NCBI RefSeq assembly: GCF_004382795.1 | Contig: NZ_SMSG01000001.1 | Coordinates: 496,001-560,000 of the forward strand | Length of the DNA: 64,000 nt | Source of the DNA: Cumulibacter soli | GTDB lineage: Bacteria > Actinomycetota > Actinomycetes > Mycobacteriales > Antricoccaceae | Reading direction: 5' to 3' | In this document: piece after piece, positions 25,404 to 64,000 of the stretch | Layout of the letters: every line of letters begins with the position of its first letter | Position numbering within the stretch: position 1 is the stretch's first letter | The notes under the pieces: model-generated | What the model was told of the DNA's origin: nothing | Database searches by the model: none | Seen by the model: only the letters and a program-made list of their open reading frames with translations | Translations under genes and position numbers: made by a program

Positions 25404-25434
25404 CTGCGGCGCACCCCGACAGGGTGCGCCGCAG
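25404..25434 (-). terminator. Terminator of the acyl-CoA dehydrogenase gene
   Basis: A perfect 13-bp stem (CTGCGGCGCACCC and complement) with a 5-nt loop lies 21 bp after the stop codon. On the minus strand TTCGTTTCTATC follows it. Confidence 0.8.
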
Positions 25435-28121: not shown

Positions 28122-28329
28122 ACGAGAAACCTACTGGGTCCGCGGCGGCTCTACCCCATGGCGACTGCGCATTGATCGACGCGCCCACGCCCTGTTAGCG
28201 AGCGGCTCTGCTCGACGGCCGCGTGCCGCCTGCACATGACCCCCACTTGGGTGACATAACTAGCACGACTACACCTATTCGGATTAGATTCATCCGGTCG
28301 GATGAGGACGAGAAGATAGGTGATCCGGG

Positions 28330-42132: not shown

Positions 42133-42522
42133 TCAGCCAGCGAGCGAACGCCCCTTGATCTGCTCGAACTCCTCGGCGGAGATGACCCCCGAGTCGAGCA
42201 GGTTCTTCGCCTTGGAGATCTCGTCGGCAGGGCTCGCGGTCGACAGCGAGCGTATGTAGTCCTCTGCAGACCGCTGCGCGGCCTGCGCTTCGCGGACGTT
42301 TCGTTCTGTCATCCCCTTGCCGCGGGCGATCAAGTACACCAATGCCGTAAGGAAAGGGACGAAGAACAGGAAAAACAGCCAAATCGCCTTCCCCCACCCG
42401 CTGAGGTCCCGATCGCGGAATAAGTCGGTGACAATAGCGACCAGTGCGAACAGGTACGAGATGAAGATGGTGATCCACAGGAACCATCCAATGAGGTCCC
42501 AGAAACTGCTCCAGAAGTCCAC
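42133..42522 (-). CDS. PLDc_N and SHOCT domain membrane protein
   Basis: The N-terminus reads VDFWSSFWDLIGWFLW, and the PLDc_N (cardiolipin synthase N-terminal-like) two-helix module spans about 5-60. A SHOCT domain closes this 129-residue protein (AKNLLDSGVISAEEFEQIKGR). The start GTG at 42522 matches the family's MDFW start; a GTG three codons upstream is possible. A degenerate copy of the 17-bp dyad (CCACCC-N5-CGGTGA) lies 68 bp upstream. Confidence 0.85.
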   Translation of the reverse strand: MDFWSSFWDLIGWFLWITIFISYLFALVAIVTDLFRDRDLSGWGKAIWLFFLFFVPFLTALVYLIARGKGMTERNVREAQAAQRSAEDYIRSLSTASPADEISKAKNLLDSGVISAEEFEQIKGRSLAG

Positions 42523-42616
42523 AGCATTCACTCTTTCGTTGGTTCCGTTGGGTCGACAAGAAGAATCGCGGGAAGACACGGCACCGTCACCACCCGAAAG
42601 CGGTGAAGCGACGCGG

Positions 42617-42994
42617 CTACTTCCGCTGTTTCTTATCGTCTTTTGAGTCGCGCAGCAGAATCGCGTGTAGCACGGCGTGTACCAGCGAAATCACGATCGC
42701 GGCGAGCACCGTCTGCAGGAAGCCGCCTACGTCCAGCACATCGGAGATGCCGGCGGTAATCGCCAACAGGACGCCGTTGACGATCAGCGCGGATAGCCCG
42801 AGGGTGATGACGGTCAGCGGCAAGGTGAACAGGCGCAGGATCGTCCCGATAAGTACGTTGACCAGGCTGTAGAGGGCAGCAAGCCCGATGAGACCAAACG
42901 AGCCGTACCGAATATGCACGTCCGGGATCAGCCACGCGGCGACGCCGAGCGCCGCAGCCATGATCAACCACGCGACGAGAATCCTTCGGAGCAT
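42617..42994 (-). CDS. Phage-holin-family-IV-like (YvlD type) membrane protein
   Basis: Four predicted transmembrane helices cover most of this 125-residue protein (MLRRILVAWLI onward). The layout matches Phage_holin_4_2 proteins, which in actinobacteria are chromosomal and not obviously phage-linked. The start is ATG with a weak site; an upstream GTG would add 13 residues. Two copies of the 17-bp dyad lie between it and the divergent AI-2E gene. Confidence 0.82.
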   Translation of the reverse strand: MLRRILVAWLIMAAALGVAAWLIPDVHIRYGSFGLIGLAALYSLVNVLIGTILRLFTLPLTVITLGLSALIVNGVLLAITAGISDVLDVGGFLQTVLAAIVISLVHAVLHAILLRDSKDDKKQRK

Positions 42995-43029
42995 GTCCTC
43001 GACGATGCCGCCACCGGTGACGCGCGTCG

Positions 43030-43046
43030 TCACCCATTACAGGTGA
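43030..43046. promoter_or_regulatory. 17-bp dyad copy a, TCACCC-ATTAC-AGGTGA
   Basis: Eleven of twelve arm bases fit TCACCC-N5-GGGTGA. It lies between the divergent holin-like and AI-2E genes, 43 bp (start to start) from copy b. Confidence 0.6.
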
Positions 43047-43072
43047 CGGCCCGCCAACCGCCTATCGCCCAG

Positions 43073-43089
43073 TCACCCACCGCGGGTGA
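43073..43089. promoter_or_regulatory. 17-bp dyad copy b, TCACCC-ACCGC-GGGTGA
   Basis: A perfect dyad 34 bp upstream of the AI-2E family gene start. It is a probable binding site for a dimeric regulator. Confidence 0.65.
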
Positions 43090-43123
43090 AGGCCGGTGCT
43101 TGAAACGATGCTGCAATCACCGA

Positions 43124-44293
43124 ATGAGCATCACAGAGTCTACGGTCGAGCCGCCACGTTTCGGCCTACCGCGCGGAGTTGTCATACTGCTTGGCCTAGC
43201 CGCGACCGTCGTCGTGGTGGTCGGAATGCGACAGGTCGCCGACATCCTGGCACCGATATTTCTCGCTCTGTCCCTGACAATCACCGTCTACCCCGCGAGA
43301 ACCTGGCTGGAGCGGCATCGTGTGCCGAGTTGGCTCGCCACCATCCTCGTCGTGCTCGGAATCTACGTACTACTGATCGCGCTTATCCTTTCGTTCGCGC
43401 TTGGAATCGCCAAGTTGGCTCAGATCCTGCCCGAGTATGCCGATGAGATTCAGACGCGTATCGGCGACCTTCAATCGTGGCTTGCCGATCGCGGAATCGG
43501 CTCCGACGAGGTTCAGGACATCCTGAAGGGCTTCGACTACAGCGCTCTGGTCGGATTTGTCAGCGCGATTCTGGGCAGTCTGCTCAGCGTCGGATCGGTC
43601 CTGGTCTTCTTGATCGCCCTGGTGCTGTTCATGGGGTTGGACACCGCCATGTTCACTACCCGGATGCACCGGGTGCGCGGCGAACGGCAGCAGGCGCTGC
43701 TCGCGTTGGCCGCCTTCGCCAAGGGCACTCGCAAGTACTTCATGGTGTCGACCGTTTTCGGCGGAATCGTCGCCATCCTCGACTGGCTAGCCTTAGTCAT
43801 CCTCGGCGTGCCGGCTGCCCTGCTCTGGGGAATCCTGGCCTTCGTTACGAACTATATTCCGAATATTGGCTTCATCATCGGTCTGGTTCCACCGGCCTTG
43901 CTGGCGCTGATCACCAGCGGTCCGGGCACGATGCTCGCCGTCATCATCGTGTACATCGTGCTCAACTTCGTTATCCAGTCGATCATTCAGCCCAAGTACA
44001 TGGGCGACTCGGTCGGACTTACGACGACGGTGACGTTCTTGTCGTTGATCTTCTGGGCCTACGTGCTCGGCCCGCTCGGCGCGATCCTTGCGGTACCGAT
44101 GACGCTGCTCGCCAAGGCGACATTGGTCGATTTCGACCCGTCCAGCAAATGGCTGCAGCTCTTCCTCGGCGATTCGCCGAACTTCGACGCGCCTAAACGA
44201 CGCCGTCGACGGCGCAGATCCCGTACCTCCGCCCCCGAGGACGACGATGCCGACAGCGCGTTGCCGACCGATCATGAGTCTCCAGCTGGTTAG
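43124..44293 (+). CDS. AI-2E family transporter (TqsA/PerM type)
   Basis: The 389-residue protein has about eight helices. The N-terminal half carries ILAPIFLALSLTITVYPARTWLERH, and the conserved C-terminal half reads LGVPAALLWGILAFVTNYIPNIG. These blocks are characteristic of the family, which includes quorum-signal exporters and ion transporters. The substrate is not predictable. The C-terminus is a basic tract (RRRRRR) then an acidic tail. It converges with mscS, with 4 bp overlap. Confidence 0.9.
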   Translation: MSITESTVEPPRFGLPRGVVILLGLAATVVVVVGMRQVADILAPIFLALSLTITVYPARTWLERHRVPSWLATILVVLGIYVLLIALILSFALGIAKLAQILPEYADEIQTRIGDLQSWLADRGIGSDEVQDILKGFDYSALVGFVSAILGSLLSVGSVLVFLIALVLFMGLDTAMFTTRMHRVRGERQQALLALAAFAKGTRKYFMVSTVFGGIVAILDWLALVILGVPAALLWGILAFVTNYIPNIGFIIGLVPPALLALITSGPGTMLAVIIVYIVLNFVIQSIIQPKYMGDSVGLTTTVTFLSLIFWAYVLGPLGAILAVPMTLLAKATLVDFDPSSKWLQLFLGDSPNFDAPKRRRRRRRSRTSAPEDDDADSALPTDHESPAG

Positions 44294-45129
44294 ATTGCCG
44301 GAGGGCGGGTGTACGGCGCTTCCGGCCGCTGGGAGGTAACGGTGGCGGCCACCGCTTGCACGTCCAATGCCCGCCCGATAGCCGATACGACGGCGGACGT
44401 CGTCGGCACGTACGTCACGGGATCGGTCCAGTACCGGACCAGCATGGTCAGCTTGCGTCGTTCGATACTCAGCATCAACACCGTTGGCATTGGGTCCGTC
44501 AGCACATTCGGGGTGCTGGCCGCGGCGGCGCTCAACACCCGACGTAGTTGATTGATCCGGCGTTCGCGCTCCGGACCGTCAGCGACCAGTTCGCAGCGCA
44601 CCTCGACCTCCGAGCGTCGGCGACCGAAGCGGGTGTGGTTGACCAGCGGTTCTGCGAGAATCAGCGCATTCGGCACATGCACGATGCGGCCGTCAGTCGT
44701 CGTGATCAACACCGAGCGGCCGTTGAGACTGGTCACCGTTCCTACATATCCGTGCGATTCGACCTCATCGCCGACATCTACGGGTTTGCGGCTCTGCAAA
44801 ACGATCCCGGCGCCGAAGTTGTCCGCGACTCCCCGCAGCACCAGGAACGCCAAAGCGGCGATGACGATGACGACCACCAGCACCGGTCGAATCTGCGCGC
44901 CGAGAAATGACAACGCAAAACCGACACCCAGGAACAGCACCAGGTATTTGACGGCACGCACGATCAGCAGCCGTAAGTTCTCCGATATCCCGTGCACCTT
45001 GGCCAATGCCGCGTTGACCGTGTGCTTACTGACGCGGAACGCGACCCAGGTCAGCAATAGCGTCGCTACCGCGAAAGCGATATCCCAGGCACTCACCTCA
45101 CTGGGGGAAACTATGTCCTCAATGGTCAC
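44290..45129 (-). CDS. Mechanosensitive ion channel, MscS family
   Basis: The 279-residue protein has about three N-terminal helices (near 15-33, 55-77 and 80-100). The pore-lining segment ALAFLVLRGVADNFGAGI is then followed by the beta-domain block VGDEVESHGYVGTVTSLNGRSVLITTTDG, typical of MscS channels. It should release solutes on hypo-osmotic shock. It is divergent from sulP1, and one dyad copy lies in the gap. Confidence 0.9.
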   Translation of the reverse strand: MTIEDIVSPSEVSAWDIAFAVATLLLTWVAFRVSKHTVNAALAKVHGISENLRLLIVRAVKYLVLFLGVGFALSFLGAQIRPVLVVVIVIAALAFLVLRGVADNFGAGIVLQSRKPVDVGDEVESHGYVGTVTSLNGRSVLITTTDGRIVHVPNALILAEPLVNHTRFGRRRSEVEVRCELVADGPERERRINQLRRVLSAAAASTPNVLTDPMPTVLMLSIERRKLTMLVRYWTDPVTYVPTTSAVVSAIGRALDVQAVAATVTSQRPEAPYTRPPAI

Positions 45130-45232
45130 CGCTCGCCATCCCTTTCCGCCCGATCATCACTGCGCCCTCAGGACGCACCTGGTACACCGCTATGGCTTAC
45201 CGCCGCACCGACCTCCTCGCTGTCACCCGTCG

Positions 45233-45249
45233 CGGGTGATGTAGCGGCC
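45233..45249. promoter_or_regulatory. 17-bp dyad copy c, TCACCC-GTCGC-GGGTGA
   Basis: A perfect dyad in the divergent gap between mscS and the first SulP gene, 104 bp upstream of mscS and 93 bp upstream of sulP. Confidence 0.65.
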
Positions 45250-45341
45250 ACACCGCCGAAGCACGCTGACAACAGAAGGCGTGCGGTTCGTGGCCGCTGG
45301 CACTCCTCGGATGTGGAGATCATGGTGAGCGACGCAGGGGC

Positions 45342-47066
45342 ATGGGCGCGATGAGCTCGGATATGACCCAGGATCGTCGGTCGCGGCTAGTGGGATTCTT
45401 GCCGCGCCGACGGGATATCGGACACGATCTGGGTGCTGGCCTGACCGTCGCGTTGGTCAGCGTCGCGGAGGGTATGGCGTACGCGCTGGTCGCGGGAGTC
45501 GACCCGATCTATGGCCTCTATGCAGGCTCCATCACCGTCATCATTGGCTCGTTGCTCGCCTCGACCTCGCTGCTGATGGTGACGGCCACGAACGCGCTCG
45601 CGTTGGTCACTGCCGACAAGATCGGCGCCCTCGGCTCAGATGACCCGGCGAAGGCCATGTTTACCTTGACGCTGCTGGTCGGGGTCGTGATGACCATCCT
45701 CGGGTTACTGAGGCTCGGATCTCTCATCCGTTTCATCTCCCGAGAGATATCCGCCGCGCTCGTGACCGCCGTCGCGTTACTGATCGTGCTCGGCCAGTAC
45801 AAGGATCTCGTGGGGTACACCAGCGACCTCGACGGCAACAAGGTCCGTAAAGCCATCGATATCACCGCGCACCTCCCCAGTTGGGATGGGCCAACAGTCG
45901 CTGTAGGCGTCGCCTGCATCATGTTGATCGTCCTGACCAAGAGAACCAAGTTTCGCTCGTACGCCGATATCGTGGCTCTCGTCGTCGGTACCGCCGTCGT
46001 CGCGGCCTTCGACCTGCAGAGCATCGAAACGATCGGCGACATAGCGTCCATCCCGACCGGCCTGGATTCAGTGCCCACCCCACATATGCCTGACCTGTCG
46101 TTGGTTCCCACGCTCATACCGGCCGCGATAGCCGCGGCGATCGTCGGATTATCGGAGGCCGCGACGGTGGGGTCGGCCTATCCGAACAGAGACGGCACCC
46201 CCTCGGACGCGAGCCGGGACTTCATCGCGCAAGGGGCTGCAAACATCGTCGGCGGGTTCTTCCGCACGATGGTGGTCGCGGGCTCGCTGTCGCGAACGGG
46301 CGTCAACGCCTCAGCGTCGGCTCGCAGTCGCTGGGCCGGCGTGTATGCGGGCATCCTTCTGGTGATCCTAATTGTGCTCGCGGGCAACGTCGCCGAGCTG
46401 ATACCGCTGTGTACCCTGGCCGCGATCCTCATCGTCATCGGCGCCGAGACCATGGTCCGCGAGTTACGCCACCTGATCCAGTCCCGGTTCGTATCGTGGC
46501 CGCACCTGGTCGCCGGCGCGATCACGGTGCTCGTGGGTGTACTGGATGAGATCACGACAGCCGTGTTCACCGGCGTTGGGCTCTCGCTGCTGTTGTTCAC
46601 CCTGACTATGGGCGATCGGCTCAAGATAACCGCATGGCAACCGATCTCGGCCGGGCAATGGCGCGAGACGACTCCGCCCGAGAGGCTGGAGGTGGGCAGT
46701 ACGACCGTGCTCGCGCTGAGCGGTTCGGCATACTTCGCGTCGGTGTATCGCGCCAGCCACGCATTCCCGAAGAGTGATGAGCAGGGCGGCGCGGCAGTCA
46801 TCCTGCAGGTGCGGGGACGACGCCTCTACTCGCTGACCGGTGTCGACTTCCTACTGGACCTCGTGCGGGACCTCAAGAAGTCGAGGAATCTCGTTATTCT
46901 GGCGGATGCCGAACCCAGCCAGCGCCGCACGTTCGAACGGACGGGGCTCCTCGCCGAGGTCGGCGAGGAGCACGTGATCTGGCGGGAGAGCGTCATCGGT
47001 GCCGCCGCGACCGAGGCGTTTGCGGTCGCGCAGCAGTGGCACTCCGCTAATACGAGTCAGCAGTAG
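45342..47066 (+). CDS. SulP family anion permease, first of a tandem pair
   Basis: About 12 hydrophobic segments are followed by a C-terminal STAS-like domain (about 440-560) in this 574-residue protein. The N-terminal block LVSVAEGMAYALVAGVDPIYGLYAG is the SulP signature. The family carries sulfate, bicarbonate or other anions; the direction and ion cannot be read. Its start is ATG at 45342 or 45351. It lies 2 bp before the second SulP gene. Confidence 0.9.
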   Translation: MGAMSSDMTQDRRSRLVGFLPRRRDIGHDLGAGLTVALVSVAEGMAYALVAGVDPIYGLYAGSITVIIGSLLASTSLLMVTATNALALVTADKIGALGSDDPAKAMFTLTLLVGVVMTILGLLRLGSLIRFISREISAALVTAVALLIVLGQYKDLVGYTSDLDGNKVRKAIDITAHLPSWDGPTVAVGVACIMLIVLTKRTKFRSYADIVALVVGTAVVAAFDLQSIETIGDIASIPTGLDSVPTPHMPDLSLVPTLIPAAIAAAIVGLSEAATVGSAYPNRDGTPSDASRDFIAQGAANIVGGFFRTMVVAGSLSRTGVNASASARSRWAGVYAGILLVILIVLAGNVAELIPLCTLAAILIVIGAETMVRELRHLIQSRFVSWPHLVAGAITVLVGVLDEITTAVFTGVGLSLLLFTLTMGDRLKITAWQPISAGQWRETTPPERLEVGSTTVLALSGSAYFASVYRASHAFPKSDEQGGAAVILQVRGRRLYSLTGVDFLLDLVRDLKKSRNLVILADAEPSQRRTFERTGLLAEVGEEHVIWRESVIGAAATEAFAVAQQWHSANTSQQ

Positions 47067-47068
47067 CC

Positions 47069-48691
47069 GTGCCCGCACTCATCCCGACAATCGCCGGCTA
47101 CCGCACACAGTGGCTGCCGTCCGATGTCATCGCTGGACTAACCGCCGGCTCCGTGGTGATTCCGCAAGCCATGGCCTACGCGACCATTGCCGAAATGCCC
47201 GTGCAGGCCGGATTGTACACCTGCATCGTTCCGATGCTGGTGTACGCGCTACTCGGCGGTTCGCGCACGATGAGCGTATCGACGACGTCCACGATCGCGA
47301 CGCTCAGCGCCACGACGGTGATAGCGGCAGGTGTGGCGGCGGGTTCGCAGAACGCGCTCGGAACTCTCAGCGCGCTGACCCTCCTGGTCGGCGCGATTCT
47401 GCTTGTCGCACGACTGCTGCGTCTTGGCTCGCTCGTCGAAGCGATCAACAAACCCACCATCATCGGCGTGCAGATCGGTGTCGGAATTACCGTCGCGCTC
47501 GGGCAATTGCCGAAACTCCTCGGCGAGGGCGATGATCCCAGCGGCGAGGGATTCATTCGCGCGCTGGCTGGCGTCACTCGCTCACTGTCCTCGGCGAACA
47601 CCGCGACGATCCTGCTCGCAGTCGGCTCAATTGCAACGTTGCTGGTGATCAAGCGCTGGCTCCCCCGCGTCCCTGGACCGCTCATTGTCGTGGTGGCGGG
47701 GATCCTGCTCATGGCGCTAACTCCACTCGCTGATGCGGGAGTACGCCAAATCGATGCGATCCCGCGAGGGTTGCCGGTACCTGCATTACCAGACTTCGCC
47801 CACCTCAGCGGACTCGTGCCCGGCGCACTCGCGATTTCGGTGATGGTGTTCCTGGAATCGGCAGCTGTCGCTCGTAGCCTCCGGGCGCCTGGGGACAAGC
47901 AGATCAACAGCGACCGCGAACTGTTTGCGGTCGCAACCGCCAATGTCGCTGGCTCGCTGTTCGCGGCGATGCCCGCGGCCGGCGGCTTCTCACAGAGTGC
48001 CGTCAACCGCGCTGCCGGGGCGCGATCACAGTTGTCCGCGATCGTCACCGTACTACTCGCGGTCCTTGTGGCTCTTCTCTTAGCCCCGGTGCTGAGCATG
48101 TTGCCGGAGGCAACTCTAGCCTCGATGGTGTTCGTCGCGGTCATCGGACTGGTCGACATACGCGCCCTGATGCGGATACGGAGGATCAGTGGTCGCGATT
48201 TCTGGTTGGCGATCGTCACTGCAGCACTCGGTCTTACCGCCGGACTGCTGGCAGCAGTGGCGGCGGGAATCGTCATCACGCTCGGCCTCGTGCTGCACGA
48301 GTTGAACCGGGTCAACATCTCGATTAGCGGGCACCGGGACGACGTGCTCGCGATACTTATCGGAGGCCCGTTATACACGTCCAACATCTTGTCCTCGGAA
48401 CTCGCGGTGCTCGACTTGGCCAAGCAACACCCTGATGTCCGGGCTATCGCAATCGACCTAGGACGTCAGTATCAGGTCAGCGTCACGATTATCGAAGGCC
48501 TGCAGGACCTCGATCGCGAACTTGCGGCGGCGGGAATCCAGCTTCGACTCGCACGCTTACAGCCCACGGTGTCGCAGACCTTGGCCCGAACGCCCTGGTA
48601 TCAGCAATTCGAGGCCGAGCATCGCGTCTTCGCTACCGTCGGCCACGCGCTCGCTACCCCACCAACTGATTCATTCACCCAACCTGGGTGA
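47069..48691 (+). CDS. SulP family anion permease, second of a tandem pair
   Basis: This 540-residue SulP protein carries a clearer family start, VVIPQAMAYATIAEMPVQAGLYT, and a C-terminal STAS domain (from about 415). It is only moderately similar to its neighbour, so the pair may be an old duplication or a heteromer. GTG start. The stop codon lies inside a perfect copy of the 17-bp dyad. Confidence 0.9.
   Translation: MPALIPTIAGYRTQWLPSDVIAGLTAGSVVIPQAMAYATIAEMPVQAGLYTCIVPMLVYALLGGSRTMSVSTTSTIATLSATTVIAAGVAAGSQNALGTLSALTLLVGAILLVARLLRLGSLVEAINKPTIIGVQIGVGITVALGQLPKLLGEGDDPSGEGFIRALAGVTRSLSSANTATILLAVGSIATLLVIKRWLPRVPGPLIVVVAGILLMALTPLADAGVRQIDAIPRGLPVPALPDFAHLSGLVPGALAISVMVFLESAAVARSLRAPGDKQINSDRELFAVATANVAGSLFAAMPAAGGFSQSAVNRAAGARSQLSAIVTVLLAVLVALLLAPVLSMLPEATLASMVFVAVIGLVDIRALMRIRRISGRDFWLAIVTAALGLTAGLLAAVAAGIVITLGLVLHELNRVNISISGHRDDVLAILIGGPLYTSNILSSELAVLDLAKQHPDVRAIAIDLGRQYQVSVTIIEGLQDLDRELAAAGIQLRLARLQPTVSQTLARTPWYQQFEAEHRVFATVGHALATPPTDSFTQPG
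48675..48691. promoter_or_regulatory. 17-bp dyad copy d, TCACCC-AACCT-GGGTGA
   Basis: A perfect dyad whose last three bases are the stop codon of the second SulP gene. It lies 77 bp upstream of the first GAP-family gene, which it would control. Confidence 0.65.
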
Positions 48692-48767
48692 ACCGCTCTC
48701 GGCTTGCAGAAGGCCACTGTGAAGCGTCGGTATCGTCCGGCGGCACAACAGCACAAGCGGAGTCACC

Positions 48768-49481
48768 ATGGGATCGCTTCTCCTGCAGCTACTACCGGTG
48801 GGCTTGGGCATCATCATCAGCCCGCTGGCCATCGTGGCCGGGATCGTTGTTCTCGGCTCACGTCGAGCGCGGGTCAACAGCGTCGCGTACCTCATCGGCT
48901 GGGTGGCCGGTATCGCCGTGTCGATCGTCGTGTCCCTATGGATCTTCCACCTCTTGGAGATCAACGCGCGACGCGATCCCCCGGCCTGGCTGACCGTTGT
49001 CCATTTTCTGCTCGCCGCAGTCCTGATCGTGCTGGCCGTGTTGGTGCTGTCGCGTCAAAAGGCCGCGGTAACGCGTATGGCTGCAGCGAGCACACCGCGG
49101 GAGGTGGTCAAGGCAGCACCGTCACTGCCTGGGTGGTTGCGCGCGATCGACGAGTTCACGCCGATACGCACCGGGCTCACCGGCTTCGGTCTCTTCGTGT
49201 TGAACCCGGTCGATCTGTCTTGTGCGATCGCCGGCGCGTTGACGCTCTCACTAGCCGATGTGAGTCCCGCCGCGCAACTGACCGCCACGATCATTTTTGT
49301 GGTGGTTTCGTCTGCGTCGATCCTGGTACCGGTGTCCTACCTGGTGCTGCGCGGGTCGAGGGCCGAGCCGGCATTGCACCGGCTGCGCGATTGGGTCACC
49401 GGCCACACCGGTGTGATGAATGCGCTGTTGCTGCTGGTCATCGCCGCGTTGCAGTTGGTCAAAGGGCTGCAGTCGCTGTGA
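48768..49481 (+). CDS. GAP/Sap family membrane protein, copy 1
   Basis: The 237-residue protein has six predicted helices arranged as two groups of three. The N-terminal block LLPVGLGIIISPLAIVAGIVVL and GFGLFVLNPVDLSCAIAGAL are typical. GAP (GPL-addressing) and Sap proteins in mycobacteria help move glycolipids or sulfolipid to the surface, and the fold resembles LysE. Substrate here unknown. Confidence 0.87.
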   Translation: MGSLLLQLLPVGLGIIISPLAIVAGIVVLGSRRARVNSVAYLIGWVAGIAVSIVVSLWIFHLLEINARRDPPAWLTVVHFLLAAVLIVLAVLVLSRQKAAVTRMAAASTPREVVKAAPSLPGWLRAIDEFTPIRTGLTGFGLFVLNPVDLSCAIAGALTLSLADVSPAAQLTATIIFVVVSSASILVPVSYLVLRGSRAEPALHRLRDWVTGHTGVMNALLLLVIAALQLVKGLQSL

Positions 49482-49514
49482 ACCCTCACCTGGCCGTGAC
49501 GACCGGCCTGCACG

Positions 49515-50435
49515 TCATCCACGTATGACGCACCGAAACCCCAAATGGCTAGTGCTGCTGCGGACCGACTGACCCTGGCGCGCGGGCGGGCGGTATCGCC
49601 GACAGTACGACGGTGCGCAGATGTGTGAGCCGCCCTTCATCACCTTGCGATCCGATTCCGTTAGCGGGCTTTCGGGCGCGCAGCAGGAGTGCGCGACCGC
49701 GTCCGCCCCGGCATGGCTCTCGGTCCACGTGGACGTCGTCCACTCCCACACATTTCCGATCATGTCGACGAGGCCCCAGTCGTTCTCGCGGTAATGCCCT
49801 ACCGGCGTCGTCCGCTCGCGTCCGGGAGGGTCCAAATTCTGCCACGGGAATTCTCCGCGCCAGGTGTTCGCCATGCTCCTACCTCGTGGCTCAAGCTCAT
49901 CGCCCCACGCAAACTCGGTCGGCGCTCGGCCGCCGCGGGCGGCGTACTCCCACTCAACCTCACTCGCGAGTTCTTTCCCGGCCCATTCGGCGTAGGCCCG
50001 CGCATCCTCGAACGCAACGTGCACCACCGGATGGCGCTCGAGCCCATGCAGGGTGCTGCCGGGGCCCAGCGGGCTTTTCCAGGTCGCGCCCGGTACCCAT
50101 TGCCACCATCGTTGCCAGTTGTCGAGCGGAACCGGGCCGTCGGTCTGGGTGAATACCAGCGATCCCGAAAGGAGTTGCTCCGGGCGCGCGTCAGGAAACT
50201 CCTCTATGGTCGGTGCGATCTCGGCGACGGTCTGATGGCCGGTGTCACGAACGAATCGGCGGAACTCGGCATTGGTGACCGGATGCTGATCCATCCAGAA
50301 TCCTGATACGTGCTCGAGATGCGCGGGACGTTCCTCCGGATAGTGCTTGTCGCTGCCCATCACAAATTTGCCGGCCGGAATCTGCACCATATCCTTGAAC
50401 GGATCGGCGTTCGTTGCGCGGTGAACGCGGGGCAT
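49515..50435 (-). CDS. Formylglycine-generating enzyme family protein (SUMF1)
   Basis: The enzyme oxidises a Cys in the CxPxR motif of sulfatases to formylglycine. In this 306-residue protein the catalytic Cys pair is Cys273 and Cys278 (GGSHICAPSYCRRYR), the arrangement seen in Streptomyces FGE. NVWEWTT and the N-terminal GKFVMGSD also fit. GGAGG precedes the ATG. Its likely substrate, the arylsulfatase gene, is immediately upstream on the same strand. Confidence 0.94.
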   Translation of the reverse strand: MPRVHRATNADPFKDMVQIPAGKFVMGSDKHYPEERPAHLEHVSGFWMDQHPVTNAEFRRFVRDTGHQTVAEIAPTIEEFPDARPEQLLSGSLVFTQTDGPVPLDNWQRWWQWVPGATWKSPLGPGSTLHGLERHPVVHVAFEDARAYAEWAGKELASEVEWEYAARGGRAPTEFAWGDELEPRGRSMANTWRGEFPWQNLDPPGRERTTPVGHYRENDWGLVDMIGNVWEWTTSTWTESHAGADAVAHSCCAPESPLTESDRKVMKGGSHICAPSYCRRYRPPARQGQSVRSSTSHLGFRCVIRG

Positions 50436-50556
50436 GGAAGGCCTCCCTAACTCGACGACGGCGCACGATGCCGTTCGCAGGTTCCTAGCGGATCGTCGCC
50501 TCAGACGTGATCCCCAGCTCCGAATGCGTGAGCCGGGGATCGCGTCCGACGATCGA

Positions 50557-52878
50557 CTACTCCCTCGATAGCACGGCGAGCGCCTCGGTCTCAAGATCCA
50601 GGTACGCCTCAGGACTCACATCGACCGCGACACCGTAGATCCTGCCGCCAGTGAAGGCGAACGGGCTCGTGTAATCGCGGCTCACGTTGTCACCGCTGTC
50701 AAAGCCGACGCACAGTCCGTCGCCGCAAAGCGTGAACTTTCCGGTCTGGGTCCGCATCGGCCCGGAATCCACGACTTGGTCATCGACGTACAACTTCGCT
50801 GTACCGAGGGACTCACGAAACTCACCCGCCCCCTCCCGGACGAACTCGACCCCAAGTGCGTGCTTACCCGCAGGAAGTACGTCGGATACAAACGTCTGTT
50901 CCGGTTTCACGCCGAGGAAGTTGTAGACGTAATGGAGCTTGCGGTTCTTGATGAACAGCGAATGGCCGCCGAACCGAGACCCGTGCGCGAAGATGACACC
51001 CTCGGCGTCCTCGGTGATGTCGACGTCCGCGATGATCTTGTACGAGCGTCCCCGTACGCTCACCGCTACACCTTCTGGTACGGCCCCTGAATCGGGGTAG
51101 TAGATGTAGCGGTTCCGTGACGGTTCTGCTTGTGGCCGCTCCACGGTCAATTGCTCCAGGGCAGAGCGGTCATCGAGCGGCAACACCTGATTCGCCTCAG
51201 CCTCTTCGAACCACGCGGCGACTAACTCCTGCACCTTCTCCGGATAGTCGGCCGCAAGGTTGTGTGCCTCGGCGCGATCCTCTTCGAGGTTGTAGAGCTC
51301 CCATTCGTCCTCGTCGAAGCGCCCGTGACCGGTCAGCGGCGCGTGTACCGCGGCAACCTTCCACCCGTCTTGCCAGAGCCCACGAGTCCCAAGCATGCAG
51401 TAGTACTGGCGCTGTTTTGCGGTAGGTGCGTCGGCGCCGTCAAAGCTGTAGCGCATCGATACGCCGTTCAGCGGCTTTTGCTCGACTCCGCGGTACACAT
51501 CCGGCATGTCGATTCCCGCCACGTCCAGGATCGTCGGCACGATGTCCGTCACGTGGTGATACTGGTGCCGGATCTCGCCCTTTGCCTTAATACCCGCCGG
51601 CCAGTGGATGATCATCGGATCGCAGGTGCCGCCAGCGTACTGGGAGTAGCGCTTGAACATTTGGAACGGCGCCGAGAAAGCCGCGGCCCACCCTGTCGGG
51701 TAATGGTTGTACGTGTCCGGCGACCCGAGGGCATCGAGATACTGCAGGTTCTCCTCTACATCGTCCGGGAATCCGTTGAAGAACTTGTTCTCATTGACCG
51801 ACCCGCTGGTCGAGCCCTCACCCGAAGCGCCGTTATCGGCGCAGTAGAAGATCAGCGTGTTATCGAGCTGCCCCGACTGCTCAAGGTAGTCCACCATGCG
51901 GCCAATCTGCGCATCGGTATACTCCGAGAATCCCGCGAATACCTCAGCCATACGTGAGAACAAGCGCTTCTCATCGTCTGAGCACTGGTCCCACGGTTTG
52001 ACATAGTCAGCGGCGTTCGCCTGGTCCTCCGGAAGAGGGTTGAACGGTGTGAGCGGCGTGCCTTCGGGCAGGATGCCGCGATCGATCATCCGTTGCAGGA
52101 CCCATTCGCGATAGGCGTCGTATCCGTCGTCGAACATGCCCTTGTATTTGGCTGTGTATTCCGCGGGCGAATGATGCGGCGCATGATTAGCGCCCGGGCA
52201 GAACCACATGTACCACGGCTTCGAGGGATTTCCGGACTTCTGGTCACGGATCATCCGGATAGCCTGGTCGGCCATGTCCTTAGATAAGTGGTATCCATCT
52301 TCTGGCGAATAGGGCTGCTCTATGTAGTGGCTGTCCTCAACGAGGTCCGGGTACCAGTTGTTCGTCTCGCCGCCGAGGAATCCGTAGAAGCGATCGAACC
52401 CCATCGACAGCGGCCACGCCGACCGACTTCCACCTGCGGAGTTGTCTTCTTCGGGCACATTGTGGTCCTTACCGACCCAGAACGTCGAGTACCCGTTGTC
52501 CTGGAGCACCTGGCCGATAGTCGCGCACTCGGCCGGAATGCGACCGGAGGCGCCGGGGAATCCGTTGGTGCCCTCCATGATGCAGGCGACGTTATTGACG
52601 TGGTGATTACGCCCGGTGAGGAAGACCGACCGGGTCGGCGAGCACAACGCTGTCGTGTGCCATTGCGTATAGGTCAATCCGTTCTGCGCGAGGCGATCCA
52701 GCGTCGGCATGTTGATCCGCCCGCCGTACGGCGACCAGGACGCCATGCCCGTGTCGTCGTACAGGATGACCAGGATGTTCGGGGCGCCCTCCTTCGCCCG
52801 CGTGAGTTCGAACGGCCCCCAGTCGGGCACCGAATCACGCACATCCAACTTGATCGTGCCCTGAAACTCTTTCGCCAT
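50557..52878 (-). CDS. Arylsulfatase, formylglycine type
   Basis: The 773-residue enzyme carries the modification motif Cys79-Ser-Pro-Thr-Arg83 and metal Asp41/Asp42 near the N-terminus. It resembles the large AtsA-like arylsulfatases, with a C-terminal extra domain (about 575-770). No signal peptide is visible, so it may be cytoplasmic. The start ATG is chosen with GGAGAG seven bases upstream. FGE follows downstream. Confidence 0.95.
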   Translation of the reverse strand: MAKEFQGTIKLDVRDSVPDWGPFELTRAKEGAPNILVILYDDTGMASWSPYGGRINMPTLDRLAQNGLTYTQWHTTALCSPTRSVFLTGRNHHVNNVACIMEGTNGFPGASGRIPAECATIGQVLQDNGYSTFWVGKDHNVPEEDNSAGGSRSAWPLSMGFDRFYGFLGGETNNWYPDLVEDSHYIEQPYSPEDGYHLSKDMADQAIRMIRDQKSGNPSKPWYMWFCPGANHAPHHSPAEYTAKYKGMFDDGYDAYREWVLQRMIDRGILPEGTPLTPFNPLPEDQANAADYVKPWDQCSDDEKRLFSRMAEVFAGFSEYTDAQIGRMVDYLEQSGQLDNTLIFYCADNGASGEGSTSGSVNENKFFNGFPDDVEENLQYLDALGSPDTYNHYPTGWAAAFSAPFQMFKRYSQYAGGTCDPMIIHWPAGIKAKGEIRHQYHHVTDIVPTILDVAGIDMPDVYRGVEQKPLNGVSMRYSFDGADAPTAKQRQYYCMLGTRGLWQDGWKVAAVHAPLTGHGRFDEDEWELYNLEEDRAEAHNLAADYPEKVQELVAAWFEEAEANQVLPLDDRSALEQLTVERPQAEPSRNRYIYYPDSGAVPEGVAVSVRGRSYKIIADVDITEDAEGVIFAHGSRFGGHSLFIKNRKLHYVYNFLGVKPEQTFVSDVLPAGKHALGVEFVREGAGEFRESLGTAKLYVDDQVVDSGPMRTQTGKFTLCGDGLCVGFDSGDNVSRDYTSPFAFTGGRIYGVAVDVSPEAYLDLETEALAVLSRE

Positions 52879-53011
52879 GACAAGACTCTCCAAACTCGGT
52901 GCGCACGCGCGCGATCAGATCAAGTCCACCTACCGGTGTGCTATCCGGAAGGTCAGCGATCGGCAATCAACCGCTACGGGCGAAAATTAACCTCTCATCA
53001 GGCGCCGGAGG

Positions 53012-53028
53012 TCATCCGGGACGGGTGA
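53012..53028. promoter_or_regulatory. 17-bp dyad copy e, TCATCC-GGGAC-GGGTGA
   Basis: Eleven of twelve arm bases match. It lies in the gap between the arylsulfatase and second GAP gene, 51 bp (start to start) from copy f. Confidence 0.55.
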
Positions 53029-53062
53029 ACTCTGTAGTCATCTACGCAGCCGCACGCCCGGA

Positions 53063-53079
53063 CCACCCAGTGCGGGTGA
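53063..53079. promoter_or_regulatory. 17-bp dyad copy f, CCACCC-AGTGC-GGGTGA
   Basis: Eleven of twelve arm bases match; the first base is C rather than T. It lies 67 bp upstream of the second GAP gene. Confidence 0.55.
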
Positions 53080-53146
53080 GCTCATTGACGCCTAGCGCTG
53101 GAAGCATGTGCCGACACCCAGTATTCGACGGCGGATCGGATGTTCG

Positions 53147-53821
53147 ATGAACGCGGTGATCGCAGACCTGCTTCCACTAGCGGTTGGCGTGGCGGTTTCG
53201 CCGATACCGATCATTGCGGTGATCCTGATGTTGCTGTCGACGCACCCTGGACCGACGAGCGGCGGATTTGCCCTCGGCTGGATAGTCGGCATTGCATTGA
53301 CATCAACCGCCATGGCGCTGATGTACAACGCTGCCGGGGCTGCAGCCGACGAAGGCTCCTCCGGAGGGGGCGGATGGTTCCGACTCATCCTCGGGCTCCT
53401 GTTGATCGCTCTCGCGGTGCGAAAGTGGCGCGCGCGGCCGACTGATGCTGATGCACCGCAGCTGCCGCACTGGATGTCAGCGGTGACGCAGTTCGGCGTA
53501 GCTAAAGCAACCGGTCTCGGCTTGGTTCTGTCCTCAGTCAACCCGAAGAACCTGCTGATGGCAGTCGCCGCCGGCACCGTTATCGCAGATGGCGTCGGTG
53601 GCGCTGACGAATTCACCGTCGCGGTGGCCGTCTACACGGTCATCGCCGCGAGCACTGTCTTGATACCTGTTATCGGTTACGCCGTCGCCGCGGCTCGGGT
53701 ACGTCCATGGCTGGATGCCCTTCGCGGGTGGCTCGAGGCCAATAACGCAGCGATGATGGCGGTCTTGCTGTTGGTGCTCGGCGTCATGATCCTCGGCAAA
53801 GGCATCGCCGGTCTCGGTTGA
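53147..53821 (+). CDS. GAP/Sap family membrane protein, copy 2
   Basis: The protein of 224 residues has the same LysE-like six-helix layout as copy 1 (LLPLAVGVAVSPIPIIAVILML at the start, LVLSSVNPKNLLMAV in the middle). It is divergent from the arylsulfatase. The ATG at 53147 follows GGAT; an upstream in-frame ATG lies inside the promoter gap. Confidence 0.87.
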   Translation: MNAVIADLLPLAVGVAVSPIPIIAVILMLLSTHPGPTSGGFALGWIVGIALTSTAMALMYNAAGAAADEGSSGGGGWFRLILGLLLIALAVRKWRARPTDADAPQLPHWMSAVTQFGVAKATGLGLVLSSVNPKNLLMAVAAGTVIADGVGGADEFTVAVAVYTVIAASTVLIPVIGYAVAAARVRPWLDALRGWLEANNAAMMAVLLLVLGVMILGKGIAGLG

Positions 53822-53892
53822 TTCGCTACCCTTGGCGCGATGGCTTTCACCTACGGGAGGCCTTCGGATCCGCAGACCGATGGACAGAAGGA

Positions 53893-54210
53893 CTAGGTGC
53901 CAAGTAGCTTCGCCTTCTGCGCAGCGAACTCTTCCTCGGTAAGCACACCACTGCTGCGCAGTTCACCAAGTTCTTTCAGTTGCGCAATGACATCATCGGT
54001 TCCGCTCGCCGCGGGAGTTGCAGGCGGGGGTGGGGTATATGCCTGCTGCTCGCGGTACGCATTGGCCTGTTGCTGCTCCATCGCACGCTCTTGCTGATGC
54101 CGCGCGACGCTTCCGGATACGGCACTCGCTGTTCCCGCCACCACCGCCGTACGAGCCATCGTGCCCAGTAACCCCGGCCGTCCGACACGACCGATTCCTC
54201 GTCCGAACAT
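53893..54210 (-). CDS. SHOCT domain protein
   Basis: The 105-residue protein has a Gly/Arg-rich N-terminus, a weakly hydrophobic stretch (TMARTAVVAGTASAVSG), a Gln-rich coil and a C-terminal SHOCT domain (LKELGELRSSGVLTEEEFAAQKAKLL). SHOCT domains mediate oligomerisation or protein contacts. It is the last gene of a minus-strand set. Confidence 0.88.
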   Translation of the reverse strand: MFGRGIGRVGRPGLLGTMARTAVVAGTASAVSGSVARHQQERAMEQQQANAYREQQAYTPPPPATPAASGTDDVIAQLKELGELRSSGVLTEEEFAAQKAKLLGT

Positions 54211-54317
54211 GTGCTGCCTCCTTGAAAGGTAAGTACCTGCCTGTGATCCGATACGGACGTCAACCCTGGGTGTCCGTCGCGATCGGGCGTGACTAGTGAA
54301 CGCTGGCGGGTCGTTGG

Positions 54318-54743
54318 TTAGGACGCTTCGAGGTCGGCGTACGCCTGCTGCACTTCGTCCTCTGGAACCCGTCCGTGCGCGACAATCGCTCCGCCGGCCT
54401 CTTCCAGCGCCGTAAGCAACTCTCGCGCCCAGAGCTGTTCATAGACGATGACCCCGGCGGCCGTGCCCGGCTGAAGTTCAGCTCCCGCTACCGCCAGATC
54501 TTCCTCACTCAACAGTCCACCGAACTCGCCATCGATACTGTCGTAGAGGCTTGCCGCGGGCGAGGAGAGCGAGTCGATCTCGAACGCATCGACGACTCCA
54601 TCGGCGTCCTTCGACACGAACACGAGGTCGATGATCCGGACCAGGTCGCGTTCGACAAGACTCGCGAGCGCATTGGCTATTGCTCCGTGGAATTCGCCAT
54701 CGCGGAACTCGGCCACGAGGAAATCGATGGGACCTCGCTGCAT
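54318..54743 (-). CDS. DUF6325 family protein
   Basis: The 141-residue soluble protein begins MQRGPIDFLVAEF and has the pattern LVRIIDLVFVSKDADG, then acidic segments and a C-terminal helix. DUF6325/DUF1269-like proteins are frequent next to SHOCT genes in actinobacteria and may be stress proteins. Function unproven. A dyad copy lies 86 bp upstream. Confidence 0.82.
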   Translation of the reverse strand: MQRGPIDFLVAEFRDGEFHGAIANALASLVERDLVRIIDLVFVSKDADGVVDAFEIDSLSSPAASLYDSIDGEFGGLLSEEDLAVAGAELQPGTAAGVIVYEQLWARELLTALEEAGGAIVAHGRVPEDEVQQAYADLEAS

Positions 54744-54828
54744 GATGCCTCCTCAAGAGGTTCGGGTGAAATGTCGGCGCTGCAGCCCGTGTCGCGGCAA
54801 ACGTAACCCGCACGGAGGGACCTCGATC

Positions 54829-54845
54829 TCCCCCGTCACGGGTGA
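54829..54845. promoter_or_regulatory. 17-bp dyad copy g, TCCCCC-GTCAC-GGGTGA
   Basis: Eleven of twelve arm bases match. It overlaps the end of the YggT-like gene and lies upstream of the DUF6325 gene. Confidence 0.55.
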
Positions 54846-55336
54846 ACGTCTCCCGGGTATCCGGCGGCGCCAGCTACAGGTGGCGCCGCCGGCGGCAACA
54901 TCGCAGCCGTACGAGCGGCCTTGGCCTTCGCATTGAGCCACGACAGCAATGCCGCAATCGCCGCTCCAAGCAGTAGGTAGATCAGCGTCGCGAACAACAG
55001 TGACGTGTCCAGGACGGATTGCCCCGAAATCTCAACTGGCGGGAAAATTCCACGGAATGGTCGCATCGCAAACTGAGCATTGCGATACACCCACATCGTG
55101 AAGGCCGCATCCGTGCTCGCGCCGAAAAGTCGTAGGACGAACGCCAGCGACAACAGCACCGTGTTGATGATGACGAATATGTACGCCATCCACGCCGCCA
55201 CTTTGGCGATCGCAAGGACAACGGGTATGTCGCCGGTCGATCGCTTACTGGCGTCAGTAGCACTAGTACCTTGCGGCCGCGACGAGTACGAATTCGGGTT
55301 TCCGGTCGGATGCTGACCAACGTAGGGATTCGTCAT
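54836..55336 (-). CDS. YggT-like membrane protein
   Basis: In this 166-residue protein two or three transmembrane helices follow a Ser/Asn/Pro-rich N-terminus (first helix about 40-72, second about 110-137). The segment RPFRGIFPPVEISGQSVLD between them recalls the YggT family loop. It ends with a Pro/Ala-rich tail. The match is modest. It lies downstream of the HAD gene with 42 bp between. Confidence 0.7.
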   Translation of the reverse strand: MTNPYVGQHPTGNPNSYSSRPQGTSATDASKRSTGDIPVVLAIAKVAAWMAYIFVIINTVLLSLAFVLRLFGASTDAAFTMWVYRNAQFAMRPFRGIFPPVEISGQSVLDTSLLFATLIYLLLGAAIAALLSWLNAKAKAARTAAMLPPAAPPVAGAAGYPGDVHP

Positions 55337-55371
55337 CGCCCCATCGTCATCTCTGAGTGAGCTCGTGTGAC

Positions 55372-55388
55372 TCGCCCGTCACGGGTGA
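55372..55388. promoter_or_regulatory. 17-bp dyad copy h, TCGCCC-GTCAC-GGGTGA
   Basis: Eleven of twelve arm bases match. It overlaps the stop codon of the HAD gene and lies 35 bp upstream of the YggT-like gene. Confidence 0.55.
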
Positions 55389-56317
55389 ACCGACGCCTGT
55401 TCGCCCGGAAAGACTCGCGTCCAATCGTGCGCCATGCTGACGACTGTCCATTCCAATCGGGCGGCCGTGTCGCGGATCGGTTCGCGATCGTCGCCCAACG
55501 TCGCGCTGTGTCCCGAATATTCAAACTCCCTCGTAGCATCGTCGTGATCGACGAGCAGAGCGAGCGACGGACCATCTCCGGTGGTCGCCCACTGCATCAT
55601 CTCGCTATCGCCATCGGAATTGCCGGCCGCGAGAATAGGCCGTCGTCCCAATTGGGTTTGGATGTTGTTCACCTTCACCGGCCCCTCATTGGCGCCACCG
55701 ACCAGTCGACTCGAGCGCGCCAGGGACGGCCCACCGTCTTGCTTTCGGAAGTCGTACTCGATCAGTGTCCCCACCACAAGTTCCTGGGGCACGCCATACA
55801 GGTCGTCGGCAACAGCCCGCACGAACTCGGCTCCACCGCCGGTCACCACCGCGACGGTGAATTCTCGCGCGCGTAATTCGCCGATGAGCTCCAGCATCGG
55901 AGCGTAGATCGTGCGGCCCAGTGGTACCCCGAGTGTGGGGTGAACGGCGGATTTCACGAACGCAGCGGACTCAGCGGCGAATAACTCGGGTTCGATACCT
56001 TCGAACAGTTCTGTCAACGCGACGGCGATCTGAGCCAGGCCCAACTCGCCGATCGCAGCGCGATCACCATTGATCAACGCGGCGTACTCCGCGCGGTCGA
56101 CGACCGACGGTTCCGATGCGACTCGATCTTTGAGCGCCTTGACGAAGAACTCCCACTGCACATAGTTCGGTTTCTCGCACCACAACGTGCCGTCGTTATC
56201 GAAGCACGCAACCCGCGCCGTGCGCGGAAGCGCCTCGGAAGCATCAAGGAATGCGATCACAGAATCCCGCGTGGGACCCGGACGCCAACTCGGCAATAAC
56301 CCACCTGTGTTCGTCAT
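55379..56317 (-). CDS. HAD family hydrolase
   Basis: In this 312-residue protein the HAD motif I is DNDGT at 40-44 with the nucleophile Asp40 and Asp42. Motif II/III region (VAVVTGGGAEFVRAV) and the GNSDGDSEMM loop are present. It resembles phosphoserine-phosphatase-like HAD proteins found with sulfatase genes in actinobacteria. The substrate is unknown. The start at MTNTGGLLPS is preferred over a longer frame of 25 more codons. Confidence 0.9.
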   Translation of the reverse strand: MTNTGGLLPSWRPGPTRDSVIAFLDASEALPRTARVACFDNDGTLWCEKPNYVQWEFFVKALKDRVASEPSVVDRAEYAALINGDRAAIGELGLAQIAVALTELFEGIEPELFAAESAAFVKSAVHPTLGVPLGRTIYAPMLELIGELRAREFTVAVVTGGGAEFVRAVADDLYGVPQELVVGTLIEYDFRKQDGGPSLARSSRLVGGANEGPVKVNNIQTQLGRRPILAAGNSDGDSEMMQWATTGDGPSLALLVDHDDATREFEYSGHSATLGDDREPIRDTAARLEWTVVSMAHDWTRVFPGEQASVHP

Positions 56318-56520
56318 GACTTCCCTTCGCCGTACGGGCCCGAATAACACGGTTGTGGCAACCCTGACCCGCGCATCACCGATAAGCCTCACCTATATCG
56401 GACGACCCCCACCCCCGTGACGCTGGTGTTAGCGTCCGCTCCATGCGCGGGTATTACCGCGCACTCGACATCGAAACTCATATCCGTCCCCGATCCCAAT
56501 GCGCAGAGGCGGCAGTTGGC

Positions 56521-63462: not shown

Positions 63463-63592
63463 TCGGATCTCATCAAAATAGTGTGAGGACACATGGCCTA
63501 CTTCGGATAGTCTCGATGTACATGCCTGAGCAGGCGATCGTCACGTCCGCAGCACGCATCCGCGCCCGCTGCGAATGTCCGATGGAGGCTCC
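63463..63592. other. Gap before the LuxR gene, no feature seen
   Basis: This 130-bp gap holds the GGAGG site for the next gene. I recognise no dyad, terminator or small frame with support in it. Confidence 0.5.
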
Positions 63593-64000
63593 ATGACCGC
63601 CACCCACACATCCGCCCGACGCTCACACCACCCAGACTCCACCGATAACGAACGGAGCCCAAGCCGTCCACCGGCGGCCGGCACCCCCTGGTTGCCGCGC
63701 AAGTACCTACCGCGCACCCGACTCTGGGCCAGGTTGGATATCGCAACTCAGGAGGCCATCACGGTCGTCGTGGCACCAGCCGGATCCGGCAAGACGCTCG
63801 GCGTCGCCGGCTGGCTGCAGCAGACGCCTGATGCAGAAGGCGCGATCTGGCTGGATGCGAGTTCGCCTATCACCACCGCCTCCTTCGAGCAGACCATCGA
63901 CGCGGCAGCCGCACCGAGCGCCAAACCACGCATCGTTGTCATTGATGATGCGCACCTGCTATCCACACGCTGTATCCGGTACATCGAAGAGCGGTTAGAG
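63593..64000 (+). CDS. MalT/LAL-type LuxR regulator, N-terminal part (3' end outside window)
   Basis: The frame is open to the last base, giving 136 residues. After a basic, Ser/Pro-rich start come PWLPRKYLPRTRLWARL, the conserved entry of MalT-type STAND ATPases, Walker A APAGSGKT at about 61-68 and Walker B RIVVIDDAHLL. A C-terminal LuxR HTH would be expected beyond the window. GGAGG lies four bases before the ATG. It could be the regulator of the neighbouring cluster, but nothing in the sequence proves that. Confidence 0.85.
   Translation, partial: MTATHTSARRSHHPDSTDNERSPSRPPAAGTPWLPRKYLPRTRLWARLDIATQEAITVVVAPAGSGKTLGVAGWLQQTPDAEGAIWLDASSPITTASFEQTIDAAAAPSAKPRIVVIDDAHLLSTRCIRYIEERLE

Follow-up and report, generated by a model that had tools for sequence, protein, structure and literature searches.

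Introduction

The closest described counterpart of the system reported here comes from Actinoplanes SE50/110. In the accessible part of that report, a palindrome of two hexamers, TCATCC-5 nt-GGATGA, overlaps the -35 element of 17 promoters in a 51-gene region, and its end lies 34.4 ± 1.0 nt from the transcription start (PMC7567727). Deletion of the MalT-like gene ACSP50_3915 lowered transcription of 42 of the 51 genes, while its overexpression raised that of 39; the region holds a second MalT-like gene, and no maltose-metabolism gene is described there as responding (PMC7567727). As far as the same excerpt goes, the comparison is limited to Micromonosporaceae and the gene content of the region is reported to vary strongly (PMC7567727). 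Related half-sites are the E. coli MalT box, GGAKGA (as cited in the portions of PMC7567727 and PMC9628970 at hand), and the BldM group I site of Streptomyces, given in part of PMC4125116 as TCACcC-g-n-n-c-GgGTGA with a spacer of 4. Here we analyzed a 64,000-nt stretch of the Cumulibacter soli genome (contig NZ_SMSG01000001.1, positions 496,001 to 560,000; hereafter the window), in which a 17-bp dyad, TCACCC-N5-GGGTGA, recurs ahead of a block of envelope and sulfur genes. Based on its sequence context, we think it highly probable that these dyads are operators of a MalT-like transcription activator encoded just right of the block and belonging to the large ATP-binding regulators of the LuxR family (LAL).

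A 17-bp dyad is concentrated in a 12.4-kb gene block

A first-pass annotation, made from the letters of the window, had described eight copies of the dyad, and exactly eight are found at no more than one arm mismatch, at 43030, 43073, 45223, 48675, 53012, 53063, 54829 and 55372. Seven of its positions were correct and one, given as 45233, is actually 45223. Its division into four perfect and four one-mismatch copies did not hold: three copies are perfect (43073, 45223 and 48675) and the other five carry one mismatch, over a span of 12.4 kb (43030-55388). The spacer is five bases at all eight sites, as had been stated, and the two copies said to lie over upstream stop codons do so, the TGA of the second SulP gene forming the end of 48675-48691 and the stop of the HAD gene lying within 55372-55388. 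When two mismatches were allowed, the window yielded 12 matches, compared to a mean of 3.8 and a maximum of 9 in 100 shuffles. The four additional matches lie at 25411, 48977 (within a gene), 52967 and 42590, the last being the degenerate copy that had been noticed earlier.

Equal density of dyads across the genome had been named as an observation that would speak against a local regulon. Density is uneven. The 3.94-Mb genome (20 contigs) holds 17 copies at up to one mismatch, eight of which lie in the block, including all three perfect ones (binomial value 2e-16, for a span picked after the sites had been seen), and the same pattern read backwards gave 7 matches. All nine copies in the rest of the genome carry one mismatch; six are inside called genes (L133, L134, L135, L137, L139 and L140), one is at a gene end (L132) and two are intergenic (L136 and L138). 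With the degenerate arms TCAYCC and GGRTGA and spacings of 0 to 12, exact matches in the window are limited to four sites with N5 and one with N4 (28290). Genome-wide, TCAYCC-N5-GGRTGA occurs exactly five times, four in the block and one at C2:398748, and 31 times at up to one mismatch vs 10 for the backwards control. The repeated 17-base palindrome is confirmed as real.

Position of the dyad relative to predicted -10 boxes

Distinct flanks of exact dyads collected from 129 loci (n = 334) carry an nAnnnT box at offset 22 in 93 cases and at offset 23 in 74, while any other offset from 0 to 59 was found in at most 11 flanks. In the window, seven of the eight dyads, as well as the degenerate copy at 42590, have a predicted nAnnnT box at offset 22 or 23 towards a gene. 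Such a box is present at 12-13% of random positions, and the chance of seven out of eight is about 2e-6 to 5e-6. Because the end of the dyad lies 22-23 nt ahead of the -10 box, the dyad is predicted to stand in place of a -35 element.

Under the rule of 34.4 ± 1.0 nt, the predicted transcription starts coincide with the start codons of three genes. The AI-2E start codon (43124) lies exactly 34 nt past dyad 43073, and the ATG codons of the holin-like (42994) and YGGT-like (55336) genes each lie 35 nt past their dyads. According to this rule, all three mRNAs would be leaderless or carry a one-base leader; at a distance of 35 nt, the holin-like mRNA may be near-leaderless.

Dyads and LAL genes occur together in distant relatives

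We searched 80 loci of named actinobacteria encoding DUF7144 proteins (the best 80 of 448 relatives; 1.53 Mb in total). TCAYCC-N5-GGRTGA occurs exactly 117 times in these loci, and each other spacing between 0 and 12 occurs once or not at all (once for N4). At least one exact dyad is present in 61 of the 80 loci, and a LAL of at least 250 aligned residues in 52. A LAL was found in 49 of the 61 loci with a dyad vs 3 of the 19 without (Fisher 6e-7, with related rows). Since the genome of S. coelicolor has 14 LALs by the count given in the available part of PMC3282765, finding one in 65% of 20-kb stretches greatly exceeds the expectation for scattered genes. Absence of the sites at the corresponding loci of related species had also been named as a result that would refute the regulon; exact dyads occur in these 61 DUF7144 loci and in 16 of 37 DUF6325 loci, all from distant relatives. 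None of five Gordonia DUF7144 loci has an exact dyad. Genomes with DUF6325 carry a mean of 8.1 exact dyads (n = 30) vs 2.0 for genomes without it (n = 268), values uncorrected for clade or GC content. The earlier proposal of a local regulon under one regulator is thus supported, as the dyads cluster in the block and recur at the same families in distant relatives.

Perfect dyads were also found at LAL genes themselves: at a LAL gene start (L044), between two divergent LAL genes (L049) and 140 bp upstream of one (L143). Genome G037 has a dyad at the start of a LAL gene and G027 has one between two divergent LAL genes. Overall, an exact dyad lies between -500 and +450 of the frame start in 12 of 70 LAL frames. 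In G059, dyads stand alongside genes for AI-2E, two SulP, HAD, DUF6325, sulfatase, alkyl sulfatase and DUF7144 proteins, and next to them is encoded a LuxR-type protein of 882 aa that matches ATPase and MalT-like TPR models; the LAL of G059 is 100% identical to a Nocardia cyriacigeorgica record (L186). DUF1269 and DUF7144 genes adjoin dyads in relatives as well.

Among 102 proteins downstream of dyads, left from 169 dyad-plus-box flanks after removal of near-copies and with gene starts set by a crude caller, the families counted were PLDc_N (23), SHOCT (22), DUF308 (14), DUF6325 (12), DUF7144 (10), GH15 (4) and AI-2E (3), a tally skewed towards DUF6325 and DUF7144, the two families by which the loci had been chosen. 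The same caller placed 46 of the 117 exact sites inside genes, some of which are surely over-long frames, compared to 3478 of 4000 random positions. A dyad within 200 bp upstream of the DUF7144 match was found in only 24 of the 80 loci, by a test designed for a match position of 10001.

Two candidate regulators lie at the right edge of the window

LAL1, an 887-aa MalT-like LuxR regulator on the plus strand, has its 5' part inside the window (63575-64000) and continues to C1:562238. LAL2, an 845-aa LAL, lies beyond the window on the minus strand (C1:562241-564778), convergent with LAL1. The pair spans C1:559575-564778, 8 kb right of the last dyad. A search of the genome with the dyad-linked LAL of a relative gave its best matches at C1:559878-564715, which correspond to LAL1 and LAL2, and three LAL queries turned up no further large LAL in the genome, the remaining matches being HTH-sized (helix-turn-helix) and in short frames.

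Both proteins have the architecture of the LAL family, being large, with an N-terminal P-loop ATPase and a C-terminal LuxR HTH. Their C-terminal GerE matches are strong (2e-15 and 1.9e-14) and TPR_MalT matches both weakly. LAL2 exceeds the AAA_16 cut-off, while LAL1 falls under the cut-off of the ATPase models with a visible P-loop, GSGKT. The sequence of the solved MalT structure matches LAL2 at 6.1e-34 and LAL1 at 5.8e-8, and both miss the MalT equivalog NF003420 (NCBIfam; 216.8 and 113.2 bits, respectively, for a cut-off of 537 bits). The regulator class left unnamed in the first-pass annotation can now be proposed, and the evidence supports a MalT-like LAL.

As for which of the two acts on the block, LAL1 forms a clade with three Nocardioidaceae LALs, all from dyad loci (support 100/100), and in L142 and L143 the LAL of this clade is the only one found. 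The nearest tree neighbor of LAL2 is a partial Gordonia sihwensis LAL from a locus without a dyad. These placements favor LAL1. LAL2 is favored by its greater similarity to MalT, since the closer of the two was the regulator in Actinoplanes. We lean towards LAL1 as the likelier regulator.

The four closest sister genomes, two from the genus and two from the family, yielded neither an exact dyad nor DUF6325. The sulfatase has no full-length counterpart in them, G003 giving a 39% partial match. Similarity to LAL1 is confined to the HTH end, and LAL2 gave HTH-sized matches plus one distant LAL-like frame (26%, in G003). The sisters therefore offer no orthologous locus for comparison, and this joint absence implies that the island, its sites and its regulators come and go together. 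Judging by this distribution, horizontal transfer would be the simplest explanation.

Right of LAL2 lie a 66-aa open reading frame and then the genes for DUF1269 and DUF7144 proteins, the DUF1269 gene being preceded by a dyad that has two mismatches and a fitting -10 box (L130:9230). The 66-aa frame (L130:8866-9066) has no Pfam or NCBIfam match, and unmatched frames of similar size adjoin dyads and LALs in L049 (9939-10181) and L104 (17614-17862). It may encode a small protein that acts as a partner of the LAL.

Proposed mechanism and alternative explanations

In the mechanism that we propose, each arm TCAYCC (GGRTGA on the other strand) would serve as a MalT-box-like half-site, and two LuxR-type DNA-binding domains of a LAL in its oligomerized, ATP-bound form would occupy the 17-mer, separated by one helical turn. 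With the dyad replacing the -35 element, the bound LAL would recruit RNA polymerase directly. Binding, activation rather than repression, and control by ATP or an inducer are inferred from the features described above. The controlled genes would comprise those for SulP, the sulfatase and its activating enzyme, GAP, MscS, AI-2E, holin-like, SHOCT/PLDc_N, DUF6325 and YGGT proteins.

Several observations weigh against control by one such LAL. Neither LAL1 nor LAL2 has a good dyad in its promoter, LAL1 being preceded by one that carries two mismatches and whose box, TAGTCT, stands at offset 21, and dyad 43073, though perfect, has no fitting -10 box. No exact dyad was found in 21 of the 37 DUF6325 loci, three DUF7144 loci hold a LAL but no dyad, and sister G003 encodes an 873-aa distant LAL-like frame yet has no exact dyad. 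The recognition helix NTVKTH is near-uniform across LALs and too widely shared to decide between LAL1 and LAL2. Several deep LAL clades share the same dyad, hence the motif and a single LAL are not strictly paired; among the tree rows, 46 of the 48 labelled ones come from dyad loci and 2 from loci without a dyad, and two rows, including E. coli MalT, are unlabelled. In Actinoplanes, too, the excerpted report inferred regulator binding from motif and mutants (PMC7567727). An unlinked regulator, for example a repressor or activator of the TetR, MarR or CRP type that binds the dyad while the LALs are bystanders, would account for the 12 of 61 dyad loci in which no LAL of at least 250 aa lies in the fetched DNA, and no DNA-binding regulator was found among the block proteins scanned by profile. 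We regard it as unlikely given the linkage of LALs to dyads across loci, the dyads at LAL promoters in relatives, and the agreement of motif, spacing and promoter distance with the Actinoplanes MalT-like regulon as partially available to us.

The arms of the block sites are identical to the BldM consensus in the accessible part of PMC4125116, which raises the question of an orphan response regulator of the BldM type (LuxR/FixJ family). The gene at 28330-28992 of the window encodes an atypical response regulator in which an HTH accompanies a receiver domain that matches weakly (1.5e-7), and an exact N4 dyad, TCATCCGGTCGGATGA (28290), lies 25 bp upstream. A 51% paralogue is encoded elsewhere in this genome, matches in the sisters reach only 24-32%, and degenerate-arm N4 sites at up to one mismatch outnumber N5 sites in the genome (92 vs 31). 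However, BldM sites have a spacing of 4, whereas all eight block sites have 5, as do the dyads of the 80 loci (117 N5 vs one N4). N4 sites are not tied to the island, because the four sisters that lack it also have 45-68 of them at up to one mismatch. Relatives of the response regulator, at 25-29% identity, turned up in just 2 of the 130 loci searched, whereas LALs occur in 52 of 80. A BldM-type regulator is accordingly very improbable and was rejected on spacing and locus linkage. Finally, the two arms could pair in RNA as a 6-bp stem around a 5-nt loop, and the genome is GC-rich, so that a hairpin, terminator, attenuator or chance palindrome has to be weighed. This explanation is hardly credible: the fixed distance to the -10 box places the dyad upstream of transcription starts, and the arms do not pair consistently. 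Among 167 distinct sites, arm position 4 mixes freely (C/G 112, C/A 22, T/G 17, T/A 16), so that 22 stems would have a C-A clash on one strand. Chance is excluded by spacing and clustering. Control by one or two nearby MalT-like LALs remains the reading that we prefer.

The N4 sites form a separate observation. The dyad ahead of the response regulator, TCATCC-N4-GGATGA, occupies 28290-28305, and the paralogue of this regulator is at C5:202038. Because BldM group I sites also have a spacing of 4, a second dyad system, distinct from the N5 one and possibly self-controlled, may exist in this genome. TCAYCC-N4-GGRTGA at up to one mismatch is 4-11 times commoner than the backwards pattern (92 vs 10 here, 45-68 vs 4-14 in the four sisters), an excess that could be due to codon usage or reflect a real site.

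Gene content of the block

At its left end, the block is preceded by narGHJI-type genes and a mobA-like gene, both identified by reading of the sequence, and by a DUF6457 gene with a profile match. The first member is a PLDc_N/SHOCT membrane protein gene on the minus strand (42133-42534; PF13396 9.8e-7, PF09851 1.1e-6), preceded by the degenerate dyad (42590-42606, minus strand, -10-like GATTCT at 42567-42562, offset 22). The Phage_holin_4_2 type membrane protein gene (42617-42994, minus strand, start read from the sequence; PF04020 1.9e-20 with the longer frame 42617-43033) follows dyad 43030-43046 (minus strand, CATCGT at 43007-43002, offset 22). In the other direction, dyad 43073-43089 (plus strand), whose offset-22 box TGCAAT does not fit nAnnnT, precedes the gene for an AI-2E family transporter (43124-44293, plus strand; PF01594 2.4e-48). 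Dyad 45223-45239 lies between the divergent genes for an MscS-type mechanosensitive channel (44290-45129, minus strand; PF00924 7.8e-14) and the first of two SulP permeases with STAS domains (45342-47066, PF00916 3.7e-67; 47069-48691, PF00916 2e-85; both plus strand). Its plus side has a -10-like CACGCT (45262-45267, offset 22), and TAAGCC on its minus side does not fit nAnnnT.

Dyad 48675-48691 (plus strand, CACTGT at 48715-48720, offset 23) precedes a first GAP/SfLAP family membrane protein gene (48768-49481, plus strand; PF11139 1.2e-33). Next come minus-strand genes for a formylglycine-generating, or sulfatase-modifying, enzyme (49515-50594; PF03781 3.5e-76) and a sulfatase (50557-52893; PF00884 3.1e-60) that likely starts at an ATG near 52878. 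Dyad 53012-53028 (minus strand, TAATTT at 52989-52984, offset 22), with arms TCATCC and GGGTGA that are exact for TCAYCC-N5-GGRTGA, faces the sulfatase, and dyad 53063-53079 (plus strand, AAGCAT at 53102-53107, offset 22) faces a second GAP/SfLAP gene (53147-53821, plus strand; PF11139 2.4e-43 with the longer frame 53108-53821). The remaining block genes are on the minus strand and encode a SHOCT protein (53893-54210; PF09851 1.3e-9), a DUF6325 protein (54318-54743; PF19850 9.2e-6) and a YGGT-like membrane protein (54836-55336; PF02325 2.5e-5, 25.0 bits, under the cut-off of 27). Dyad 54829-54845 (minus strand, TACGTT at 54805-54800, offset 23) points towards DUF6325, and dyad 55372-55388 (minus strand, GACGAT at 55348-55343, offset 23) overlaps the end of the HAD-type hydrolase gene (55379-56392, minus strand; PF12710 3.7e-12), an island member by position with no dyad upstream. 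Between the block and the regulators sits a gene for a probable cell-surface protein of 2339 aa that has DUF5979 repeats (56443-63462, plus strand; PF19407 2.3e-39) and a DUF7601 domain. Its membership in the regulon is not supported because no dyad lies upstream.

Discussion

The regulator of this block now has a class and two candidate genes, together with a ready promoter rule. A regulon type known from Actinoplanes and four other Micromonosporaceae is extended to Streptomyces, Nocardia, Nocardioides, Marmoricola, Rhodococcus, Kribbella, Pseudonocardia and the family of C. soli. DUF6325 and DUF7144, families without assigned function that are named in no paper of the searched literature, become tied to one control system, and inducing one LAL could reveal their joint role.

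We give about even chances to a broader interpretation, in which divergent LALs across the phylum would read TCAYCC-N5-GGRTGA placed 22-23 nt from nAnnnT in an actinobacterial envelope regulon of which Actinoplanes would be one local case. Its cargo would shift among PLDc_N/SHOCT, DUF308, DUF6325, DUF7144, AI-2E, SulP/sulfatase and GH15 genes. If this were true, the promoter code would be older than any LAL clade, so that islands could exchange both their regulators and their cargo without escaping control, and the regulon would be one so far unrecognized as such.

Comparison with known systems

Among the matches listed in our search of the literature on the motif, gene families and LALs, Actinoplanes (PMC7567727) was the only direct precedent. 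The block shares with BldM group I sites, as given in the part of PMC4125116 at hand, the arms and a LuxR-family HTH. It differs from them in its spacer, the 16-bp BldM palindrome having 4 nt and all eight block sites having 5, in encoding LALs rather than a response regulator of about 200 aa, and in its genes, as BldM targets are developmental. With E. coli MalT, judging from the cited excerpts, it shares LAL architecture, the -35 overlap and a half-site GGRTGA comparable to GGATGA or GGAGGA. It differs in that both LALs fall far below the equivalog cut-off, the block has no maltose genes, and the half-sites form an inverted N5 pair.

The likeness to the Actinoplanes region, within the accessible text of its description, extends to the hexamer palindrome, the 5-nt spacer, a -35 overlap at equal distance, many promoters per region, two MalT-like LuxR regulators, many membrane or unknown proteins and a gene order that varies between strains. 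In this block, likewise, N5 inverted hexamers precede several genes, the dyad covers the predicted -35 position and MalT-like LuxR genes lie in the region. Arm letter four is mostly C here and T in Actinoplanes, although one of the four exact block sites has a TCATCC arm; C in fourth position is common, as 112 of the 167 distinct sites are C/G. The amino-acid genes in Table 1 of the Actinoplanes report are missing from the block, with no glutamine amidotransferase II, M20 or M24 peptidase or amino-acid permease among the block proteins scanned; sulfur, channel and SHOCT/DUF6325 genes are present instead, and the host lies outside Micromonosporaceae. Dyads in G037 and G045 adjoin a class II glutamine amidotransferase, and those of G037 also M20 and M24 peptidases; because these families adjoin the dyads as in the Actinoplanes region, both genomes probably belong to that group. 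The best reading of the C. soli locus from its sequence is that of a LAL-activated envelope and sulfur island, a further member of the Actinoplanes kind.

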